The position numbers and the translations under genes are program-made. This document shows, piece after piece, positions 7,828 to 26,906 of a stretch of DNA of 34,294 bases. How positions within the stretch are numbered: position 1 is the stretch's first letter; each line of letters begins with the position of its first letter. A model generated the notes under the pieces. That model saw only the letters and a list, made by a program, of their open reading frames with translations, had not been told where the DNA came from and ran no database searches. The stretch lies in the IMG/VR virus record IMGVR_UViG_3300032083_000828, positions 1-34,294 of that record. One strand, written 5' to 3'. This DNA is from a virus.

Positions 7828-7989
7828 TCACAGCACCGGATACTTTTTCTTGCTATCCGTCACAATCAGCTTGCAAATCTTGCACTGGTAAACGCTCTCA
7901 GGCTCATCAGCCAACGTCCTGCCAATAGCCTGCCTCTGCATGACCGTCTGGCATTTCGGGCACTGATTATTATCCAGCAACCTCTGCAT
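7828..7989 (-). CDS. 53-residue zinc-ribbon protein
   Basis: It starts MQRLLDNNQCPKC and contains CPKC (about 10-13) and CKIC (about 38-41), the two knuckles of a zinc ribbon. The ATG at 7989 comes just after the stop of the upstream gene (7997), so the longer frame is an extension into that gene. Likely a small DNA/RNA- or protein-binding adaptor. The function is unknown. The 86 bases between this gene and 7741 hold no convincing gene. Confidence 0.65.
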   Translation of the reverse strand: MQRLLDNNQCPKCQTVMQRQAIGRTLADEPESVYQCKICKLIVTDSKKKYPVL

Positions 7990-7996
7990 TTTCCCA

Positions 7997-8176
7997 TCAC
8001 CCTGCGATATCACGCTCGACCTCCAACTGACCCGTACCGTGGCACTCCTGACAGGTCTGCCATTCATCCCTCAGATAGCCGCCATTATCATAATCACGAA
8101 CGCCGACCTGATAGACTGCCTCACCCTCACCATCACACTCGAAGCACTCATACAAAAACATCTCAGTGTCTCTCAT
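7997..8176 (-). CDS. DnaJ-type zinc-finger small protein
   Basis: 59 residues carrying CFECDGEGEA near the N terminus and CQECHGTGQL near the C terminus. These are two C-x2-C-x-G-x-G repeats like one half of the DnaJ cysteine-rich domain. No J domain is present. It overlaps the stop of the replication gene (TAATG). It probably binds one zinc ion. The function is unknown; similar short proteins are scattered through phage early operons. Confidence 0.7.
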   Translation of the reverse strand: MRDTEMFLYECFECDGEGEAVYQVGVRDYDNGGYLRDEWQTCQECHGTGQLEVERDIAG

Positions 8177-9018
8177 TACATCCACCCCTTATCTCTTGGG
8201 CTTGGTAGCCCGTTTCCTAACGCCATCCAATCGTCATCAGTTTGCTTAGTAAGCATGAACGCCTCAACGTCCGGCAATACCAGCTTATATGAAAATCCCT
8301 GCGAGCCGAAAGCCTTTATATACTTCTGCGTTACATTATCCGCAAATGCCTTCTGCCCCTCCGACAACACCTTGCTCTTGCCACCAGATACCGATTGCTG
8401 GCGATTTGAGCGCCCCTGAGTGCTCTTCCCCTCTTTTCTGCACCAAGTCTGCCAGAAAGCCTTACAAGACGCATAAGCGGCCTTATTACCGCCCTTCTCA
8501 TCCCACAGCCGCATGTCTGTCAGTATTTCCTGCCAATCAAGCTCTAGGCTCTCTGCATACTCCTTATCGAACTGTTCCGGCTCCCACTCAGATAATTTCT
8601 GTTTATTTTGAGCCTTCTTTCTTTTAGTTGATTTTGTATATTCTGTTCTTTGTAAGGTCTGTTCTTTGTAAGTGTCCGTGTTTTCCGTATCCGGTAAAAC
8701 CGTATCCGGTTTTTCAGGACGCGGTGAATCTGAGACTATATAACGAGTTCCGGCGAACTGACCTTCCGTTTTAACGCTTTCACGCACCAAATAACCGTAC
8801 TGCTCCATCGAGCCCAAAATGCGGTAAACTTTGTCCCTACCAATGTCGAACCTGCGTCGCAGTTCAGTCACCCGAACCTGCCAATCAGTCGGCTTGCTCA
8901 ATAGGTACACTAGAACCCCCAGAGCGTCGGCAGATAGCCGCTCATCATTCATTAAATCATTTGGCAATACCGAGAAGTTCTCCCGTATGTTGCCCCGAAT
9001 AATTAAACTATCACTCAT
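8176..9018 (-). CDS. Winged-helix replication initiator / replisome organiser-like protein
   Basis: 280 residues. Residues 10-85 form a winged-helix pattern (NDERLSADALGVLVYLLSKP, then VTELRRRFDIGRDKVYRILG, then YGYLVRE), as in N-terminal domains of phage O-like replication proteins. A charged linker follows. At about 145-195, WEPEQFDKEYAESLELDW then FWQTWCRKEG resembles the region of replisome organisers that contacts host helicase or its loader. With no phage polymerase or helicase in the window, it is the best candidate for recruiting the host replisome. The ATG at 9018 overlaps the methyltransferase stop (ATGA). The assignment rests on pattern similarity only. Confidence 0.7.
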   Translation of the reverse strand: MSDSLIIRGNIRENFSVLPNDLMNDERLSADALGVLVYLLSKPTDWQVRVTELRRRFDIGRDKVYRILGSMEQYGYLVRESVKTEGQFAGTRYIVSDSPRPEKPDTVLPDTENTDTYKEQTLQRTEYTKSTKRKKAQNKQKLSEWEPEQFDKEYAESLELDWQEILTDMRLWDEKGGNKAAYASCKAFWQTWCRKEGKSTQGRSNRQQSVSGGKSKVLSEGQKAFADNVTQKYIKAFGSQGFSYKLVLPDVEAFMLTKQTDDDWMALGNGLPSPRDKGWM

Positions 9019-9527
9019 ATCCATTCCATCCTTTGTCTTGTTGATTCACTATCCCAAACGAACCAAGCATATTGAACTGTTCCCGTGCTTGTTGCTTCCT
9101 CATCACCCCGCCAAATTGTCTGGCGCTTGCTGAAAACATAGCAAACATCAAACGGGTGCTTGCTGTAAAGCCTGTCATACCGGCCCATGCCCTCCAAGAA
9201 CCCAAGCCTCAACAGATAGGCGTGACGCTTATATTCTAGGTCCAACGCCCTCTGGATAAATTCTTCCGCCAATTTATACGGCGGGTTTGTCATAAGATAA
9301 TCGCACGGCCTCTTCTGTAGCATCAGAAAATCTCTGCGCGAATCGCCATAGCCCCTGTCAATCAAGTCCTCGCTGACAACATCATGACCATAGCACCGGA
9401 GCACCTTAGACATTGCACCGTTACCGCAAGCTGGCTCATGCACCCTGCACGGCTCAAGAAACTCATATGCTAACAGAGCGTCTGTCATTGCTGGCGGTGT
9501 CGGATAGAAATCGTCCTTCTCCCTCAC
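9015..9527 (-). CDS. DNA adenine-N6 methyltransferase (phage Dam-like)
   Basis: This 170-residue S-adenosylmethionine-dependent DNA methyltransferase has the cofactor motif EPACGNG (31-37) and catalytic motif NPPY (81-84), which indicates methylation of an exocyclic amino group. PTPPAM near the N terminus is also typical of phage members. The start is GTG at 9527, overlapping the TGA of the preceding gene (GTGA) with GGAG upstream; the longer ATG at 9587 lies inside that gene. No cognate restriction enzyme is evident, so it is an orphan enzyme, likely for evading host restriction or timing replication. The target sequence is unknown. Confidence 0.88.
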   Translation of the reverse strand: MREKDDFYPTPPAMTDALLAYEFLEPCRVHEPACGNGAMSKVLRCYGHDVVSEDLIDRGYGDSRRDFLMLQKRPCDYLMTNPPYKLAEEFIQRALDLEYKRHAYLLRLGFLEGMGRYDRLYSKHPFDVCYVFSKRQTIWRGDEEATSTGTVQYAWFVWDSESTRQRMEWI

Positions 9528-10196: not shown

Positions 10197-10505
10197 CTAA
10201 ACCTTTCCTGCGAACATATCTAAGAAGTCACCGAGGTCCATTACCGCCAGAGGCTTTTTCCTGTCAGCCCCCACGACCAAGACATCAGAGCCCTCAAGAT
10301 GTTGATACAAAAACTTGAACCCGTCAGCCCTTTTCTTAGCCTCAATCACCCAAGTCTCTCTGCCCTTCTTAATGTGGACATCGCCCTTAAAACCTGCGGC
10401 GGCACCCGACAGCGGCACCCTGTGAGCCTCAAGGTCACGCAGTCTGGCAAGCTCGACAATCTCGCGCTCGAACCGACTGCCCTTTTCTTTTTGTGGATTA
10501 CTCAT
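10197..10505 (-). CDS. Holliday-junction resolvase-like nuclease (Hjc type)
   Basis: 102 residues. KGSRFERE (E13), HRVPLSGAAAGFKGDV (S33, D42) and WVIEAKKR (E55-A-K57) reproduce the motif order of archaeal-type Hjc/Hje resolvases in the PD-(D/E)XK superfamily. It would cut branched DNA made during recombination or before packaging. The ATG at 10505 sits in an ATGAGTAA overlap with the upstream gene. The catalytic set is complete. It is the fullest match among the four nuclease-fold proteins in this region. Confidence 0.78.
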   Translation of the reverse strand: MSNPQKEKGSRFEREIVELARLRDLEAHRVPLSGAAAGFKGDVHIKKGRETWVIEAKKRADGFKFLYQHLEGSDVLVVGADRKKPLAVMDLGDFLDMFAGKV

Positions 10506-10713
10506 CGCACTCATCCAAGCTAGACGCACCAATTTTTACAGGCTGTTCTGTCCGGTATATCTTACCCAGACTGTCACCGGTTAATTTCTCATCAACGAAC
10601 CCATCATCAGGCAGGCTGGCTGACCACTCGGCATTAGACTTCTTCTGCCACTTCAACCAAAGCTCGTATTCCAGTTGAGAAACTTTACCTTCGAGTTCAC
10701 GACGCTTAACCAC
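10498..10713 (-). CDS. Unknown small helical protein
   Basis: 71 residues with a probable coiled-coil start (RRELEGKVSQLEYELWLKWQ) and an acidic C terminus. The GTG start overlaps the stop of the repressor gene by eight bases and the end overlaps the resolvase gene, so it is co-translated in the same unit. No family recognised. Confidence 0.55.
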   Translation of the reverse strand: MVKRRELEGKVSQLEYELWLKWQKKSNAEWSASLPDDGFVDEKLTGDSLGKIYRTEQPVKIGASSLDECDE

Positions 10714-10903
10714 TGAACACCTCGCACCAATCCTTCAAAGCAACCTTGCCCTTAGTGTACTTATAGATTGCCATCATGTGCATCCCACTCGGCGGGCGCT
10801 TTCCGTAAATCCAGTTGTGAACCGTGGGCTGTGTTACATTCAGTTCCCGTGCGGCTTGCGCTTGTCTAACGCCTTCATTTACAAGGTATTCTTGGAATTT
10901 CAT
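10706..10903 (-). CDS. Cro/CI-like helix-turn-helix regulator
   Basis: 65 residues, almost entirely one DNA-binding domain. QAQAARELNVTQPTVHNWI (about 14-32) is a clear helix-turn-helix, with GKRPPSG following as in Cro/YdaS-type repressors. It lacks a C-terminal dimerisation or cleavage domain, so it is Cro-like rather than CI-like. It is the first gene of the minus-strand replication/packaging unit and faces the recombination operon across a gap holding a dyad, and probably binds there. Its transcript may start only 3-4 bases before the ATG. Confidence 0.85.
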   Translation of the reverse strand: MKFQEYLVNEGVRQAQAARELNVTQPTVHNWIYGKRPPSGMHMMAIYKYTKGKVALKDWCEVFSG

Positions 10904-10987
10904 ATTACTGTCCTTTATACGTTTGACACTACTGTGTATAAACTGTATTAAAGTAATTCTATAAAAAGATAAAGGAGAAAATTAACT
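10904..10987. promoter_or_regulatory. Divergent control region with dyad operator and DnaA box
   Basis: Plus strand: TTGACA (10923-10928), 17-base spacer, TATTAA (10946-10951), and AAGGAG (10972-10977) ahead of a GTG start. Minus strand: TTTATA (10942-10937), 17-base spacer, TATAAA (10919-10914). The two promoters overlap face to face. Their outer hexamers belong to a perfect inverted repeat, TTTATAC (10914-10920) and GTATAAA (10936-10942). The sequence TGTGTATAA at 10933-10941 is a perfect complement of the DnaA box TTATNCACA. An AT-rich stretch follows to 10985. This could be both a genetic switch and a replication-initiator binding site. Confidence 0.72.
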
Positions 10988-11818
10988 GTGAGTGAAGTTC
11001 CTCAGTATTTTGAGACGGTTCAGCTACACCATTTTAGCCCGTCACAATTAAACAAGCCTATTGCAAACTGGATATTCGACTATGTTTATCTGTCAAAAGA
11101 TAAGCGTCGTGAAATCAAAGTAGGCGAGAACGCGGCATATGGCACAGCAGTTCACGGCGGCATTCAGGCTGTATTATCTGCGGGCACCTCAATAGAGGAT
11201 GCATCGGAAGCCGCCATAATGGACTTCGACTTCCATCCCGCTGATGAGAGTGCAGAGAAGCGCGAGAAGTTTCGTGAGCTTATCCCTGCATGCATAGAGA
11301 GCGGTGTTGACCTGCTTGCTGAGACCTTCGGCGGTTGCGAAGAAGAAAAGAAAGTGACTTGCGAACTAGCTGGCATATCCGTGCCGGTCATGGGTTACAT
11401 TGACCTGTTCACAGACAAGGCATTCTGCGAAATCAAAACTAAGGCACCGCGTCAGGGGCCAGCAAGAAAAGACGGAACCCGTAATTTTGGCAAGGCTACT
11501 CTGCCTAAAAAGCCTGAGTTCAGTCACCTCTGTCAGGTTGCTATATATGCGAAGGCTACAGAGCTAGTGCCTCACCTTGCATATGTATCGGCTGATGATG
11601 GCGTTCTGTTTACGCCCGACAACTGCGAGGAGTTACAGTCTGACATGCTGAACTATTGCCTTAATGAGATGCGCCGTCGTGCGGCTCTCAGGCAGAACCT
11701 GTTGCGTATTAGCACAGACCCGAAAGTTTTAGCCAGCCTGACTGACCCCGACTTCCAGCATCCGTTTTACTGGAACCACCAATTTAAAGATGAAGCAAAG
11801 GAGCTATGGAAAATATGA
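10988..11818 (+). CDS. RecB/Cas4-family PD-(D/E)XK exonuclease
   Basis: 276 residues. The motifs of RecB-like nucleases are all present: G52-xxx-H56 (YGTAVH), GYID139LF, CE148IK150TKA and Q183VAIY187. The enzyme should resect DNA ends, giving single strands for the annealing protein encoded next, in the manner of lambda Exo-Beta pairs. No four-cysteine Fe-S set typical of Cas4 was noticed. The GTG start is ten bases after AAGGAG and about 30 bases after the predicted transcription start. It is the first gene of the plus-strand operon. Confidence 0.85.
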   Translation: MSEVPQYFETVQLHHFSPSQLNKPIANWIFDYVYLSKDKRREIKVGENAAYGTAVHGGIQAVLSAGTSIEDASEAAIMDFDFHPADESAEKREKFRELIPACIESGVDLLAETFGGCEEEKKVTCELAGISVPVMGYIDLFTDKAFCEIKTKAPRQGPARKDGTRNFGKATLPKKPEFSHLCQVAIYAKATELVPHLAYVSADDGVLFTPDNCEELQSDMLNYCLNEMRRRAALRQNLLRISTDPKVLASLTDPDFQHPFYWNHQFKDEAKELWKI

Positions 11819-12507
11819 CCGTATGGGAAACACTATCAGCAATCGACGTATCTAAGCATGTCGAGAAAAAGAACGGCTTTACCTACCTGTCATGGGCGTG
11901 GGCTTGGACGGTGCTGAAACAGCACTACCCGTCTGCTCAGTATGTAAAGCATAGTTACAGCGTGAACGGGCTCACAGTGCCTTATATGTTGGATCACAAC
12001 GGCGATGCATATGTTTGCGTCACTGTAAAAATACCCCATAATTCGAGCGATATTACGGGACACTTGGCTGAGGCAACAGAAGTCATGCCGGTCCTAGACC
12101 ATCGCAATAAACCCATCAAAAATCCAGACAGTTTTGCCGTCAACGCCAGCTTACAGCGTTGCATGGTCAAAGCTATGGCTCTGCTCGGTCTGGGTTGCTA
12201 CATTTACGCTGGTGAAGATATGCCAGCAACCAGTTCAGGTGGACCGGACAACTCCGGAAGCAAGCCTGTGCCACGGCAAACCCCTGAGCTTGGCGTAAAA
12301 GAGACACAAGCTCACCAAAGCGCATTAGTTACTGGCTCAGGGGCGAGCGGGCTAAATAAGATTAAACCTCCATTGGCATTAGCTGATGAGGTAGCAATGG
12401 CACCAGATATAGAGAGCCTAAAGAACCTCTATAACCGTGTCTCAATGGGGCTGTCATCGGAAGATAAACAGCTATTTTCTAATCGTAAAAAGGAGTTAAT
12501 GTCTTGA
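11806..12507 (+). CDS. Single-strand annealing protein, Sak3/DUF1071 family
   Basis: 233 residues. The N-terminal 150 residues carry the DUF1071 (Sak3) pattern: FTYLSWAWAWTVLKQHYP, then MLDHNGDAYVCVTVKIP, then SLQRCMVKAMALLGLG. These Rad52-like proteins anneal complementary single strands. The C-terminal 80 residues are low-complexity and probably contact partners. The ATG overlaps the exonuclease stop by 13 bases with AAAGGAG in front, a two-gene end-processing and annealing module. Likely roles are recombination-dependent replication, repair of concatemers, or acquisition of DNA. Confidence 0.88.
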   Translation: MENMTVWETLSAIDVSKHVEKKNGFTYLSWAWAWTVLKQHYPSAQYVKHSYSVNGLTVPYMLDHNGDAYVCVTVKIPHNSSDITGHLAEATEVMPVLDHRNKPIKNPDSFAVNASLQRCMVKAMALLGLGCYIYAGEDMPATSSGGPDNSGSKPVPRQTPELGVKETQAHQSALVTGSGASGLNKIKPPLALADEVAMAPDIESLKNLYNRVSMGLSSEDKQLFSNRKKELMS

Positions 12508-12752
12508 GTAATTATGACCCAGAAATGAAGGGTGCGCTCTTCCGGAATGACAAGGGCGACAATGATAAGCGTCCCGACATGCGGGGCGACATCACAATCA
12601 ATGGCACAAAGTATTCTTTGTCTGCTTGGTCTAACGTGCCGAAAAATGGCGGCGATAAGTTCCTGTCCATAAAGGCAAGCGAGTTCATCGAGAAGACTGC
12701 CGCACCGGAAACCCAGCCAGCGGCAAGCATGGACGATGACATCCCGTTCTAG
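12504..12752 (+). CDS. Small protein with SSB-type C-terminal tip
   Basis: 82 residues with a TTG start overlapping the annealing-protein stop (TTGA) and AGGAG nine bases upstream. The body (GALFRNDKGDNDKRPDMRGD, then YSLSAWSNV) is a short beta-rich unit found in many phages. The last residues MDDDIPF match the acidic tip by which bacterial single-stranded DNA-binding proteins recruit repair and replication enzymes. It is probably a single-strand-binding or host-replisome-docking protein. I cannot confirm an OB fold by eye. Confidence 0.65.
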   Translation: MSNYDPEMKGALFRNDKGDNDKRPDMRGDITINGTKYSLSAWSNVPKNGGDKFLSIKASEFIEKTAAPETQPAASMDDDIPF

Positions 12753-12960
12753 GAAAAAACCACCTAAAAAGCCGAGCAAATATCCAACTATTGATAACTT
12801 TGCTCGGTGCCACTTTTGCAATAAGCAGTTTAACTTCCGATATCAGGGCAGTGTAAACGGAAACAAAAAGGAGTTTTGTGACGATGAGTGTCTTATCAAA
12901 AATTATAGAAAAAATCTTCAGCGGGAACAGCAAGCCAATGAGGAATTTGACTCGCTCTGA
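12736..12960 (+). CDS. Small zinc-finger protein
   Basis: 74 residues with a basic N terminus (RSRKKPPKKPSK) and C25-x2-C28-x19-C48-x3-C52, the last pair as FCDDEC, a treble-clef-like zinc finger. The C terminus is helical and charged. It starts inside the end of the SSB-tip gene, and its last 77 bases overlap the DnaA-like gene in another frame. Likely DNA or RNA binding. Function unknown. Confidence 0.65.
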   Translation: MTSRSRKKPPKKPSKYPTIDNFARCHFCNKQFNFRYQGSVNGNKKEFCDDECLIKNYRKNLQREQQANEEFDSL

Positions 12961-13243
12961 AGAGCAAATTAACAAAGTGCTGGATATCACTTCATCCGTA
13001 ACCGGCATTAATAAAATTGATATTCTTGGCAGAAGAAGGGCCGCGAAACATGTCGAAGCAAGACACATCAGTATGTTCATCTGTGCAGAATTGCTGGGTA
13101 TGTCTTACTCTGAAATCGGCAGGGCATTTGGGCGGGACCATACCACCGTATTCTATGCCCACAAAAAGCTCAGGAAAAGAACGCAGGGCAGAACCAGCCT
13201 TAACACAAATCTCAAAAAAGTAACTGAGAGAATGACCGGATGA
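12884..13243 (+). CDS. Stand-alone DnaA domain IV protein
   Basis: 119 residues. Residues 30-100 match the DNA-binding C-terminal domain of DnaA: VEARHISMFICAELLGMSYS, then EIGRAFGRDHTTVFYAHKKL. The DHTTV signature (85-89) and the Arg (R60) that begins the helix-turn-helix region are kept. No ATPase domain is present, so it cannot unwind DNA as DnaA does. It should recognise DnaA-box-like sites, either steering host DnaA, blocking it, or acting as a transcription factor. The ATG at 12884 has AAGGAG ten bases upstream; a GTG at 12878 is an alternative. A perfect DnaA box lies in its own operon's control region. Confidence 0.88.
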   Translation: MSVLSKIIEKIFSGNSKPMRNLTRSEEQINKVLDITSSVTGINKIDILGRRRAAKHVEARHISMFICAELLGMSYSEIGRAFGRDHTTVFYAHKKLRKRTQGRTSLNTNLKKVTERMTG

Positions 13244-13548
13244 ACTTAGACAGCCGGACGGTTCGTTATGTCGTCCACGGTGATGTCGAAAAATTTCAGG
13301 GAGACGGCTGGGAAGTTGTCTCTCAACTATCATTGCCTCATAGCCAATATGCCGTGCTGATGGAGAATAAAGTGACCGAACCAGAGCTTGAATTTCCTGT
13401 CTTAATAGTGCCTCATGATGATGGTGTGCTAGTCAAAATCAAGGGCGAGACGGCTATCAAGAAGATGACCGCCAAGCAGATGATGGACCTAGCAATAGAG
13501 CTAATCATGCGGGCGAATCGACGGCACAACAATGACGATACTGAATAA
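13240..13548 (+). CDS. Unknown protein
   Basis: 102 residues; the start overlaps the DnaA-like gene stop (ATGA). The segment GDGWEVVSQLSLPHSQYAVL recalls short beta-rich domains in which a GWEVV strand is conserved. The C-terminal half has a helical run (MTAKQMMDLAIELIMRANRR). The function is unknown. Its place between a DnaA-like protein and a nuclease suggests DNA metabolism. Confidence 0.6.
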   Translation: MNLDSRTVRYVVHGDVEKFQGDGWEVVSQLSLPHSQYAVLMENKVTEPELEFPVLIVPHDDGVLVKIKGETAIKKMTAKQMMDLAIELIMRANRRHNNDDTE

Positions 13549-13987
13549 TCTTTTTATTGCTGATTTAAAAATAACCCAGACCGCTAGTGGCCTCGCTGGT
13601 GAGCATATTGCCGCCGCATCAGTGCTTGCTCGTGGCTGGCGTGTGGCGATGGCCCAGCAAGACGCAGTTGATTTGATTGCTTGGCACCCTGACAGCGGCA
13701 CGACATTACGCATTCAGGTAAAGGCTTGTCAGTGTTCAAGGCAGGGCGAAGGCAGAAAAAGGGTCCACTTTCAGACAGGGTTAGGCGCTGGCAAAAGGCT
13801 ACCAACGCTGGGAGACTTTGATATTTTAGCCTGCGTATCGGCAGAACAGCGTTGTGTGTGGTATATTCCTGTTACATCCATCCGAGAGAAAAAACTTACT
13901 CGGAACATTACCTTCTTCAGCGACCCCGATTTAGAGCGGGAAAGCTGGCAAGCGGCACTAGATAATCTAGGGATATTGGACAAATAA
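13532..13987 (+). CDS. PD-(D/E)XK endonuclease / resolvase-like protein
   Basis: 151 residues. GE24HIAAASVLARGW, QDAVD47LIAW and LRIQ62VK64AC are the core motifs of a PD-(D/E)XK nuclease with Gln-x-Lys in place of Glu-x-Lys, a variation known in several branched-DNA and restriction nucleases. The C-terminal part (CVWYIPVTSI) fits the remaining strand. It could act as a resolvase or a site-specific endonuclease. It overlaps the upstream gene by 17 bases and is translationally coupled, since I see only a weak ribosome site. Confidence 0.72.
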   Translation: MTILNNLFIADLKITQTASGLAGEHIAAASVLARGWRVAMAQQDAVDLIAWHPDSGTTLRIQVKACQCSRQGEGRKRVHFQTGLGAGKRLPTLGDFDILACVSAEQRCVWYIPVTSIREKKLTRNITFFSDPDLERESWQAALDNLGILDK

Positions 13988-17428: not shown

Positions 17429-17905
17429 CTACGCGGCTAAATCAGTGACTGTTAATTGTTCAGATATCTTCCAAGCGTTGCGCCACTCTCTTGTAGCTGG
17501 AAGCTGTCCCTTACGGCATATTACCATCTTTGGCTTGTTGCCGCTATCATAGTCCCGCCACACAGATTGCGGGCAGTCCTTCATAATGAGATACTCGATT
17601 GCTGACTTTTCGTCTAAAGGGCCAATAGGCTTGGTGTCATGTAGCAAATAGCCACGAGTATGTTTCTTGAAGTCCGGCTGTGCTTCATCTTTAGTTAGTT
17701 CCCAATAAACTTCTACCGGCGGCAGGATACCGCCCTGTAGCGCACATGCCATCCAGTTAGGGTCAGGTACTAATATCTTTGCACACTCGTCAAGGCTGTC
17801 CTCATACACCACACGGTAGTCAGACTGATGACCTTCTAGGTTTTCTTTAGCCCAGCATAGTCTGTCCCATAGGTGGGTGCCTTGAAACTCAGGTGTGGTT
17901 ATCAT
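17429..17905 (-). CDS. Conserved tail-region unknown
   Basis: 158 residues, Trp- and Tyr-rich, containing DPNWMACALQGGILPPVEVY and a helical C terminus (REWRNAWKI). The ATG overlaps the stop of the upstream fibre module (ATGA), and its ribosome site GGAG is supplied by the GDLA-coding end of that gene. Similar proteins accompany fibre modules in marine phages. Function unknown. Confidence 0.6.
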   Translation of the reverse strand: MITTPEFQGTHLWDRLCWAKENLEGHQSDYRVVYEDSLDECAKILVPDPNWMACALQGGILPPVEVYWELTKDEAQPDFKKHTRGYLLHDTKPIGPLDEKSAIEYLIMKDCPQSVWRDYDSGNKPKMVICRKGQLPATREWRNAWKISEQLTVTDLAA

Positions 17906-18276
17906 GCTAGGTCTCCGTGAATAATAACCTGTGTGCGTGTAGGGTCATAATAAACATCAGCAGACCTGATTTTAACAGGAACCGTTCCAGATGACCTGCC
18001 AACGCTACTGTTCTCAGTATGGTCGCCGCCAGAACTTTCTGGGTTGTTGATACAAGCTGATATAGCAAAATTTGAATTACTCATAGTATTGGTCATATTT
18101 ACAACATATCTTCCAGTATTTGAATCGGTAATAGTAGATATATTGTTACTTCCATTTATACTGGCTTGGTTAAAGTCAGCCCAAGCCTTCGCACTACCAT
18201 TAACAACGTAACTTGTATCAAGTGAGCCAGCGGTGGAGTGTTCTAGCGTATCTGCTTTGATTTTTCCAAGTGCCAT
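17902..18276 (-). CDS. Small tail-fibre module, paralogue C
   Basis: 124 residues. The core VNGSAKAWADFNQ, ISTITDSNTGRYVVN and MSNSNFAISACI follows the beta-rich tail-fibre/receptor-binding module widespread in marine phages, and it ends VIIHGDLA. It is the last of three tandem related genes. Probably forms part of a tail-tip or fibre assembly that touches the host surface. Start ATG (TAATG overlap) uses the GGAG in the previous gene's GDLA codons. Confidence 0.65.
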   Translation of the reverse strand: MALGKIKADTLEHSTAGSLDTSYVVNGSAKAWADFNQASINGSNNISTITDSNTGRYVVNMTNTMSNSNFAISACINNPESSGGDHTENSSVGRSSGTVPVKIRSADVYYDPTRTQVIIHGDLA

Positions 18277-18680
18277 TATGCTAGGTCTCCGTGTATTGCT
18301 ACCATAGTTTGTCTGGCATCTACTAAAGAACCAGCATATTGCGTCATTTTCATTTGACAGTCGCTAGTTGTAGTAAGAATAGTCTCTTCATGACCGTCAT
18401 CTTGACAAACAAAAAAGGTATCTGGCCCCATCCCAGAACAAACGTAGTCAGCATTTGAGAAACTATTAGCCCATTGCGGGTCAAAAATTCCTGTTCCAAC
18501 ATCTGTAATGCTTGAGACATTAAGACTGTTATCAACAGCGGGGCCGTCTTGATTAAAATTAAACCAAGCCTTCGCTAACCCCTGCTGAAGATTAGTAGTC
18601 GTGCTATTACCTTCGCCTGTCACAAGGATAGACCCAGCGGTCGAGGTGCCAGTGAGTTTGTTTACTAAGATTTCACTCAT
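18276..18680 (-). CDS. Small tail-fibre module, paralogue B
   Basis: 134 residues from the ATG at 18680 (overlapping the previous stop as ATGA; an upstream in-frame ATG lies inside that gene). LAKAWFNFNQ, LNVSSITDVGTGIF and FSNADYVCSG match paralogue C, and it ends TMVAIHGDLA. The N-terminal MSEILVNKLTGTSTAGSI is a typical fibre start. Probably a receptor-contacting virion protein. Confidence 0.65.
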   Translation of the reverse strand: MSEILVNKLTGTSTAGSILVTGEGNSTTTNLQQGLAKAWFNFNQDGPAVDNSLNVSSITDVGTGIFDPQWANSFSNADYVCSGMGPDTFFVCQDDGHEETILTTTSDCQMKMTQYAGSLVDARQTMVAIHGDLA

Positions 18681-19066
18681 GCTAGGTCTCCCATTACGCA
18701 TGAACTGTGACTAGCAACACTTCCATAAGAACCCGTGCTAATGTCTCTTGATGTCACGCGATATTGATTTGCTGAAGTTTGACTTCCATCTGCTTGTGTT
18801 AAGTTTGCACAGAATTTATCTTGGTTTGCGTTGTCTCCAACCCCGTGTACTACTACAAAATCATCACTCGACATTGCCGAAGTAAGTGTGTAGGTCGTAT
18901 CTCCATCTGCGTTGTCCGTAGTTGAAGCAAGATTAAAACTGCTTCTTGTTGTGAACGAAGACGCACTATTAACCTGTAAAACAAAACACTTCGCCGCACT
19001 CTGCTTAGTCAGCGTGACAGCACCGCCGGAACTGGTCTCAACTGTGTTTGTGTGTAACGTACTCAT
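18677..19066 (-). CDS. Small tail-fibre module, paralogue A
   Basis: 129 residues starting MSTLHTNTVETSSGGAVTLT, which is a common fibre N terminus, and ending CVMGDLA. The middle (FNLASTTDNADGDTTYTLTSA, MSSDDFVVVHGV) is a diverged version of the module in the next two genes. It starts at a TAATG overlap with the preceding fibre gene. Likely a structural tail protein. Confidence 0.6.
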   Translation of the reverse strand: MSTLHTNTVETSSGGAVTLTKQSAAKCFVLQVNSASSFTTRSSFNLASTTDNADGDTTYTLTSAMSSDDFVVVHGVGDNANQDKFCANLTQADGSQTSANQYRVTSRDISTGSYGSVASHSSCVMGDLA

Positions 19067-19575
19067 TATGCCACCACCAGTGTTGCGCCAGAACTGACCG
19101 TCACTGTCACGCCGGATGCAATCGCCAGCGGGCCAGCCGCTAAGCCATTTGTATCGGTTGCAACAGTCACATCTGTGTCTAGCTGTTTTTCGTGAACGCG
19201 GATAATATCACCCAGACCGCCGCCTGCCTCGCCCAAGAACGAACCGCCGCCACCGGACCCCCATGATAGGGTGCCAGAACCGTTTGTGAGCAGTGTCTGC
19301 CCGTTAGAGCCATCGCCGTCCGGCAAAGTAAATGTCACAGTCGTTGTGACCGCTGACGGGGCTTGGAACTTGATAGACGCGCTGTTGTCGTCGTCCTGTA
19401 GGTTTAGGACATCAACGCCAGTTGTGCCGCCGGAGAAGTCTGCTAGGTGGCTCATTAGCTCACGAATAGCGTCGTTCACCTTTGACGGTAACATGCCCTC
19501 AGCAGTGTTGACACCTCCGACATCCGAATTGTTAGCCGCAGTGGCATCGTAATCGGTGAGTTTATCTTTTGCCAT
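19066..19575 (-). CDS. Tail-fibre-like protein with shared N-terminal module
   Basis: 169 residues. The N terminus (DYDATAANNSDVGG, then EGMLPSKVNDAIRELMSHL) repeats that of the large fibre at 19781-21154, which suggests a common attachment module. Then come TVTFTLPDGDGSNGQTLLTN, a Gly-rich hinge (WGSGGGGSF) and a beta-rich C terminus (VTVTVSSGATLVVA). Probably a short fibre or fibre-tip component. Confidence 0.68.
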   Translation of the reverse strand: MAKDKLTDYDATAANNSDVGGVNTAEGMLPSKVNDAIRELMSHLADFSGGTTGVDVLNLQDDDNSASIKFQAPSAVTTTVTFTLPDGDGSNGQTLLTNGSGTLSWGSGGGGSFLGEAGGGLGDIIRVHEKQLDTDVTVATDTNGLAAGPLAIASGVTVTVSSGATLVVA

Positions 19576-19778
19576 TATTCAGCCTCCGCTATTGTCAACT
19601 CGCCAGCCGCTACCTGACGCATGATTTCTGCGTATTCTGTGTTGTCTGGGTCGATAGGCACAGTAATTACATACACGCTATTACCATTTCCATCTGGGTC
19701 AACGGTTTGGCTGTTGTTAATTTTAATACCCGAATTGACACCTTCATTTTGTATGTATTGTGCTGATGTAATTTCCAT
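19575..19778 (-). CDS. Small conserved tail-region protein
   Basis: 67 residues, beginning MEITSAQYIQNEGVNSGIKI, with a beta-rich centre (SVYVITVPIDPDNTEY) and an acidic helical end. Short proteins of this pattern recur between fibre genes in marine phages and may be connectors or chaperones. It is packed between the two fibre genes with almost no spacer. Confidence 0.6.
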   Translation of the reverse strand: MEITSAQYIQNEGVNSGIKINNSQTVDPDGNGNSVYVITVPIDPDNTEYAEIMRQVAAGELTIAEAE

Positions 19779-25440: not shown

Positions 25441-26906
25441 CTGCGACCTATCTCTCTTGCCTCAACGTCAATGCCCTGAGCCAGCGACCACTGACCGGAG
25501 ATGTTCATACGAACTCGGTGGTACCTGCCCTGCTCTCTAAACGGGACAAACCCGTCTGCATTAGGCGCTATGGCTGTTGAGAAGGTCGCGTCCTCTGTGT
25601 GAACATTGCGAGTGCCAACCTCTACAGTAACGGTGCCGCCCTCATGGTATGGATAGACCCGCGTGACGATTGCATGCTTGCCCATAGACAAGCTGTTCTC
25701 TCCGGCCTCAATAGTGCCGGTCAGAGGGTCGCCAGTAAATGCGTGAATCTTAGTGCCCAGAGCTCCGCCGAACAGGAACTGACCACCCTTATATAATGCG
25801 CTATCCAGAGACGCAGGCAGGCCGTCAATGCTCGCGCTGATATTATCCAGAGCCTCAAGAGTGTAACCCGCCGTAAAGAATGGGGCTATCAGGTCGGCTG
25901 ATACGTTAGCCAGTGACCAGCGGTTCAGAGCATAGTTATATATGAGGAGCCTATCAGGGGTGCCATCCAGAGAACTATTAGAGACATATGACCAGACGGC
26001 AAGCTGTGCCTGCGGGTCTACTGTGGATGTCATTTTGTCCTTAAAGCTGAAGTCAAAGTCGTCGAAGAAAAAGCGGTTCACCTTCTCAGCGCCAATAGCC
26101 TTTGAGCCTTGTCCGTCAAACATATAGAAACCATCGTCTGACAGATAAAACACACTATGCCCAATATTGCAGACAGAGCCCGCAACCTGACAGCCACGCG
26201 CCGTTTCCACTTTATCGAACTGAAACACCAGCGGCAGGCCGGAATAGGTTGCCCGAACAATCGCCCGCTCCATTAGAATTGTGCAATATTCTCCGCCGAC
26301 AATTCCTGAAATATCGCCAGAATCGGGCAGGTCCTGAAAATCGCTTTGGTCGGTTCCAGATGTCCAGCCCGTGGGGTCATTGAACGCAGACCAATAAACA
26401 CGATATGGCTTTCTGCCGGAGCCGGTGTCGATATTAGCTGTCCACACAAAATCACGCACAACGGCAATGAAGTCAGACTTAGGTGCGCCAGATACGTCAG
26501 AGAACACGGTATCAGTGCCTAGCTGAAATTTCTGCATTTCCTCGCCAATGCCACCAGCCGCATAAACCGTGTCGCCAAACTGAACGAACTTCCAGCGCTC
26601 ACTGCTCGACAGGTCATATGCAGGTGTTCCCGCCTTGCTGATATCATCCAAGCTGGAATCACTGGCATCAAATTCGTATAGCTTTGCGCTATCACCGGCA
26701 AACAGCTTTGTATTGCCATCATCTGACTTTGCCGCAAATACGCCCAGAATTGTGTTTGTAGACGCGCCGGAGTACGGCACAAACTCGCTTAGGCTGGAAT
26801 AGCCGCTCAGAACCGGAACCACATTGGTTGCGACTGATACGCCTTGATTCATAAAATTAGGCTGGTCAGGGAGCCACTCACCGAACTGCATCATTGTCTT
26901 GCCCAA
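25437..26906 (-). CDS. P22 gp10-like tail hub / DNA-stabilisation protein
   Basis: 489 residues with repeated beta-blades (GVFAAKSDDGNTKLFAGD, RWKFVQFGDTVYAAGG, SVFYLSDDGFYMFDGQG, RLLIYNYALNRWSLANVSAD), as in phage stabilisation proteins related to P22 gp10, which close the portal channel and carry the tail needle. The N-terminal GEWLPDQPNFMNQGVSVATNV is a familiar start for this family. Its place after adaptor and before ejection genes fits. Assignment from pattern, not alignment. Confidence 0.65.
   Translation of the reverse strand: MGKTMMQFGEWLPDQPNFMNQGVSVATNVVPVLSGYSSLSEFVPYSGASTNTILGVFAAKSDDGNTKLFAGDSAKLYEFDASDSSLDDISKAGTPAYDLSSSERWKFVQFGDTVYAAGGIGEEMQKFQLGTDTVFSDVSGAPKSDFIAVVRDFVWTANIDTGSGRKPYRVYWSAFNDPTGWTSGTDQSDFQDLPDSGDISGIVGGEYCTILMERAIVRATYSGLPLVFQFDKVETARGCQVAGSVCNIGHSVFYLSDDGFYMFDGQGSKAIGAEKVNRFFFDDFDFSFKDKMTSTVDPQAQLAVWSYVSNSSLDGTPDRLLIYNYALNRWSLANVSADLIAPFFTAGYTLEALDNISASIDGLPASLDSALYKGGQFLFGGALGTKIHAFTGDPLTGTIEAGENSLSMGKHAIVTRVYPYHEGGTVTVEVGTRNVHTEDATFSTAIAPNADGFVPFREQGRYHRVRMNISGQWSLAQGIDVEAREIGRR

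Follow-up and report, generated by a model that had tools for sequence, protein, structure and literature searches.

A free-standing DnaA domain IV protein encoded in a phage recombination operon and its possible role as a competitor at DnaA boxes

The locus and its gene neighbourhood

The window, that is, the whole stretch of 34,294 nucleotides of the IMG/VR virus record IMGVR_UViG_3300032083_000828, belongs to a marine phage and carries a gene for a 119-aa protein consisting of a free-standing DnaA domain IV (hereafter DnaA-C). The gene shares an operon with a module for recombination and single-strand DNA that is probably expressed early (Table 1). The gene starts with ATG and is preceded by AAGGAG, a good ribosome-binding site.

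Table 1. Features of the window around the DnaA-C gene and the replication initiator gene.
Feature	Position	Strand	Basis
O-like/DnaD-like replication initiation protein	8176..9024	-	phrog_1456 8e-16; phrog_4707 2.8e-12; phrog_186 3e-12; phrog_270
Hjc/RusA-like Holliday junction resolvase	10197..10532	-	phrog_244 5.4e-17; PF01870 9.9e-5 (over cut-off)
Small repressor-like HTH protein, oriented divergently to the exonuclease operon	10706..10903	-	phrog_35 5.1e-8
Promoter-like region for the operon from exonuclease to DnaA-C: TTGACA, TATAACC-like element, TAnTAAAG	10923..10951	+	alignment of 22 loci
The one exact occurrence of TTATNCACA in the window (TTATACACA), within the promoter spacer	10933..10941	-	motif search
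PD-(D/E)XK-like (Cas4/exonuclease-like) nuclease	10988..11818	+	phrog_1706 7.3e-9; phrog_69 'exonuclease' 0.0011
Sak-type single-strand annealing protein	11806..12507	+	PF06378 1.3e-43; phrog_659 1.3e-44
Single-strand DNA-binding protein (SSB), 82 aa, C-terminal tip DDDIPF	12504..12752	+	phrog_7364 5.6e-11
Small zf-FCS zinc-finger protein, 74 aa	12736..12960	+	PF06467 1.3e-6
Free-standing DnaA domain IV protein (DnaA-C), 119 aa	12884..13243	+	PF08299; AlphaFold2 and Foldseek
Conserved protein, adjoins DnaA-C in related loci	13240..13548	+	synteny; no Pfam or PHROG match
PD-(D/E)XK-like endonuclease, same operon as DnaA-C	13532..13987	+	PF11645 7.7e-5 (below cut-off); phrog_5018 7.3e-15

Wherever the contig reaches, the gene order exonuclease, annealing protein, SSB, zinc finger, DnaA-C, conserved gene and nuclease is kept in the relatives. 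Among the 39 records compared, which are not independent cases since several are near-duplicates from different assemblies, the zinc-finger gene lies directly 5' of DnaA-C in all and the annealing gene lies upstream of it in 37, the contigs of the other two ending before that point; the SSB gene was missed by tblastn in some of these records. The neighbourhood of exonuclease and annealing protein, to which an earlier note on this DNA had drawn attention, is thus a feature of related phages as well. Viewed from the annealing gene, DnaA-C lies at most 0.8 kb downstream of a related Sak gene in 19 of 56 loci, counting loci that either have a DnaA-C hit or extend 2.5 kb or more downstream. The SSB tail, DD(D/E/S)IPF, is present in all 15 SSBs examined; a DDDIPF-like tip is that of bacterial, i.e., host-type, SSB, and recruits replication and repair proteins.

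Even divergent relatives show strong conservation of the promoter-like sequence TTGACA...TATAACC..TAnTAAAG. Two related loci, L004 and L005, have about 100 nt (approximately 7885-7989) that are missing from the window; this stretch lies downstream of the promoter and ahead of the exonuclease gene, and contains an additional reading frame starting with ATG. Elsewhere in the window, 62 nt at 19573-19634 are 87% identical to the SAR116 phage HMO-2011, a possible hint of a SAR116 host or of a shared tail-related gene, and three adjacent minus-strand genes at 17902-19066, near the tail fibre genes, encode proteins of similar size with C-termini all ending in DLA (two in HGDLA), possibly a tandem duplication.

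A predicted DnaA-box-binding domain without a motor domain

DnaA-C matches the PF08299 (Bac_DnaA_C) profile with E=5.6e-21 and 74.8 bits over profile positions 1-68 of 69, well above the curated cut-off of 31.5 bits, and the same profile is matched by 18 of the 18 aligned relatives. When compared with the PDB by phmmer, it finds the DNA-binding domain (DBD) of M. tuberculosis DnaA (3pvp, 5.7e-12) and that of E. coli (1j1v, 1.4e-7). The protein is composed of an N-terminal helix (residues 3-12), a linker and a helix-turn-helix domain at about residues 24-118; its AlphaFold2 model has a pLDDT of 86.7, and the top Foldseek matches of this model are the DnaA-DBD/DNA complexes 3pvp and 1j1v, with TM scores of 0.84-0.87 on the target. 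The ATPase (AAA+) domain is absent from the 119 residues, the N-terminal 22 of which form only the short helix and the linker. The TIGR00362 (DnaA initiator) cut-off is missed at 69.7 vs 343.9 bits, only model positions 340-436 being matched, and the PRK06030 (NF004687) cut-off at 33.4 vs 181 bits; the match to PHROG 27829, 'DnaA-like replication initiation protein', is borderline (E=0.0092, 17 bits).

In the alignment, R52, R60, D85, H86 and T87 correspond to R399, R407, D433, H434 and T435 of E. coli DnaA, D85-H86-T87-T88 being the counterpart of D433-T436; these five E. coli residues we take to be the DNA-contact positions of the 1j1v structure. Across 27 highly divergent DnaA-C proteins of phages, equivalents of R399, R407, D433 and H434 are almost always retained, so that DNA binding of the canonical type seems to be under selection, and the position equivalent to 435 varies, being mainly T or S. 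The claim of the earlier note that a DnaA domain IV without the ATPase is encoded here, with R60 and D85-H86-T87-T88-V89 as its DNA-binding residues, is therefore confirmed by both the profile search and the structure comparison. Taken together, the profile match, the predicted fold and the contact residues provide good support for DnaA-C being a sequence-specific DNA-binding protein of the DnaA-box type devoid of a motor domain, although its binding specificity may have drifted.

A newly described detail is the overlap of this gene with its upstream neighbour: the final 77 nt of the zinc-finger gene (12884-12960) also serve, read in a different frame, as the beginning of the DnaA-C gene, and an out-of-frame overlap of 74-77 nt is found in 18 of the 18 sequences compared. 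Changes at the first, second and third codon positions amount to 0.164, 0.249 and 0.213 in the overlap, and to 0.210, 0.122 and 0.359 outside it. The usual third-position excess is thus absent from the overlap, a pattern that use of both frames would produce, and both look constrained. In the relative C72C1 the zinc-finger ORF was left unannotated. The invariant N-terminus of DnaA-C, MSVL-KII, was considered as a functional peptide and rejected, since its conservation is confounded by the overlapping zinc-finger frame and should not be taken as evidence of a binding peptide. Translation of DnaA-C probably does not begin at a later codon, since in some relatives, L024 among them, the first ATG is the only one ahead of the domain core.

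Replication genes, DnaA boxes and possible functions

The earlier note had described the phage as lacking its own polymerase and helicase, and this part of the description stands: among the ORFs scanned in the window, which represents a possibly incomplete IMG/VR record, there is none for a DNA polymerase, helicase, primase or integrase, and none of these is annotated in the circular relative C72C1. What had been overlooked is the minus-strand gene for an O-like/DnaD-like initiator and the SSB with its DDDIPF tail. The PHROG matches of the initiator are replication initiation and DnaD-like helicase loader families, and in tblastn it matches Rep of TP901-1 (1e-8); its AlphaFold2 model is poor (pLDDT 48.5). 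Of the 39 DnaA-C records compared, 19 proved to contain an O-like initiator. Given such an initiator and a host-like SSB tail, the phage appears able to reach the host replisome by a path of its own, so that the recruitment of host replication factors can be understood without invoking DnaA-C.

The initiator has a putative winged-helix-type N-terminus, which is swapped among relatives, and a conserved C-terminal part. Two unrelated N-terminal types interchange among close relatives (window initiator; L012, 20560-21384; L023, 2429-3256; L039, 4191-5024; L041, 1458-2291). Between C72C1 and L023 the DnaA-C proteins are 99% identical and the C-terminal parts of the initiators 96%, vs 21% for the initiator N-terminal halves; for L039 and L041 the respective values are 87%, 93% and 28%. 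Since the DNA-binding domain of the initiator is exchanged with no matching change in DnaA-C, the latter does not seem to follow the phage origin. These two domain-swap pairs offer a ready comparison between a role at the phage origin and a host-directed one.

The distribution of DnaA boxes leads in the same direction. Neither TTATNCACA nor TTWTNCACA nor TGATNCACA occurs above chance in the window, in C72C1 or in the Pelagibacter phage HTVC035P, unlike in an oriC-type array, and a DnaA-box array on the phage DNA was accordingly rejected. One-mismatch matches to TTATCCACA are in slight excess (13 vs 6.3 expected, with 3 of 100 shuffles as high), but scattered rather than clustered. Were DnaA-C the origin-binding partner of the initiator, both a box array and co-variation with the initiator DNA-binding domain would be predicted; neither is seen, which argues against such a partnership and weakens the earlier proposal that DnaA-C tethers host factors to phage DNA. 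The other mechanism put forward in the earlier note, displacement of host DnaA, may still hold.

The reading that we favour, with a probability of roughly 0.4, is that DnaA-C is a competitor at DnaA boxes, most simply those of the host chromosome. Most likely, judging by the families involved, the phage would start its own replication with the O-like initiator/helicase loader and recruit the host replisome via the initiator and the SSB tail. DnaA-C would occupy DnaA boxes but could not assemble the ATP-dependent filament by which an origin is opened, its simplest targets being the boxes of the host chromosome (oriC and the dnaA promoter), and as host initiation fell, helicase and polymerase would stay available for phage DNA. 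Competition is the simplest reading in view of a box-binding domain without a motor, with its contacts kept, in a phage that has another route to the replisome and no box array of its own, and the host chromosome is the suggested target because DnaA boxes are plentiful there. The constant location of the gene in the recombination/SSB operon suits a role on phage DNA equally well, and the lone box that two clades have in the promoter spacer hints at a target on the phage side.

One such phage-side role, which appears rather unlikely, is that of a replication accessory: by binding one or a few phage sites, DnaA-C would help the O-like initiator to load the host helicase. DnaA boxes have a helicase-loading role of this kind in many plasmid origins. 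The conserved linkage of the gene to those for exonuclease, annealing protein and SSB fits this role, as do the O-like initiator encoded alongside DnaA-C in the 19 records mentioned above and the same arrangement in HTVC035P, where the O-like match is weak. The chance-level, unclustered boxes count against it, and so does the constancy of DnaA-C next to a swapped initiator DNA-binding domain, although contact with the conserved C-terminal part of the initiator is still compatible with the latter observation.

With a similarly low probability, DnaA-C could be a transcription regulator which binds the divergent promoter at the box between its -35 and -10 elements, thereby turning off or switching the operon to which it belongs. 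This spacer indeed contains the window's sole exact TTATNCACA, and the L019-L021 clade, with a protein about 52% identical, has a box at the same place. The exact box is, however, confined to these two clades; it is lost in L007, with a 92% identical protein, in C72C1 and in most others, where only its TTAT part persists, and it is therefore not claimed here as a conserved target. Moreover, a separate repressor-like gene adjoins the promoter region. Some other role of the box-binding domain, e.g., binding host DnaA or recruiting a nuclease or zinc-finger partner to specific sites on the DNA, is improbable, for although the conserved zinc-finger overlap suggests tied expression, nothing specific supports a partner.

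Extending the preferred reading, competition at host boxes, to phages in general is doubtful: a free-standing domain IV would then be a widespread phage means of clearing or blocking host DnaA at oriC and dnaA, thereby stopping initiation. If so, host helicase and polymerase would be freed for phages that lack a replisome but encode an initiator and an SSB, phages would commonly halt initiation on the host chromosome by the simple means of blocking host DnaA, and small DnaA-box binders could become tools for controlling bacterial replication.

Occurrence and comparison with known systems

Free-standing DnaA-C is an established, annotated kind of protein in phages, contrary to the rarity implied by the earlier note, and some of the marine phages that encode it rank among the most abundant. 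Relatives are present in 37 loci of viral contigs, and 19 Pelagibacter phage records carry the protein under the labels 'DNA replication initiation (DnaA)', 'Bac_DnaA_C domain-containing protein', DnaA-like or hypothetical. Among predicted viral structures (BFVD), Foldseek finds dozens of phage DnaA-C proteins, most of 79-200 aa, many of them named 'Chromosomal replication initiator, DnaA C-terminal'. The literature searches returned no functional or experimental study of phage proteins consisting of domain IV only. A scan of contigs by sequence pattern returned mainly actinobacterial DnaA, since the pattern resembled the recognition helix of these proteins, and is uninformative as to host or origin. 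DnaA-C also co-occurs with a phage helicase (EBPR podovirus 2) or polymerase (ctNMl277), and is thus no substitute for either.

DnaA has been reported in all HTVC010P-related genomes (PMC6811365), and HTVC010P-type pelagiphages have been reported to lack their own DNA polymerase, Skadi-1 using host polymerases and encoding a lambda-like helicase loader (PMC10504331). Like that of the window, the proteins of HTVC035P (gp24), Skadi-1, Greip and HTVC010P are domain IV without the ATPase, encoded downstream of nuclease and annealing genes. Those of the HTVC010P type differ in being about 170 aa long, with a longer N-terminus and another SSB-like neighbour, and are about 33% identical to DnaA-C over 66 residues (E 1e-3). 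Much closer is the 'hypothetical protein' encoded at 26306-26656 of C72C1 (OQ984150), an orthologue with 52% identity, the same operon order and the same zinc-finger overlap, in a phage whose initiator has another N-terminal DNA-binding domain. The DnaA C-terminal proteins of uncultured Caudovirales in BFVD have the same fold at 14-28% identity, and most are too small to contain an ATPase. PRK06030 (NCBIfam NF004686-8) comprises hypothetical proteins that are also short and DnaA-C-like, but the match of the window protein lies far below the family cut-off. With domain IV of bacterial DnaA (3pvp, 1j1v) DnaA-C has in common the fold and the base-contact residues, whereas bacterial DnaA additionally possesses the AAA+ domain and domain I, neither of which is found in the phage protein.
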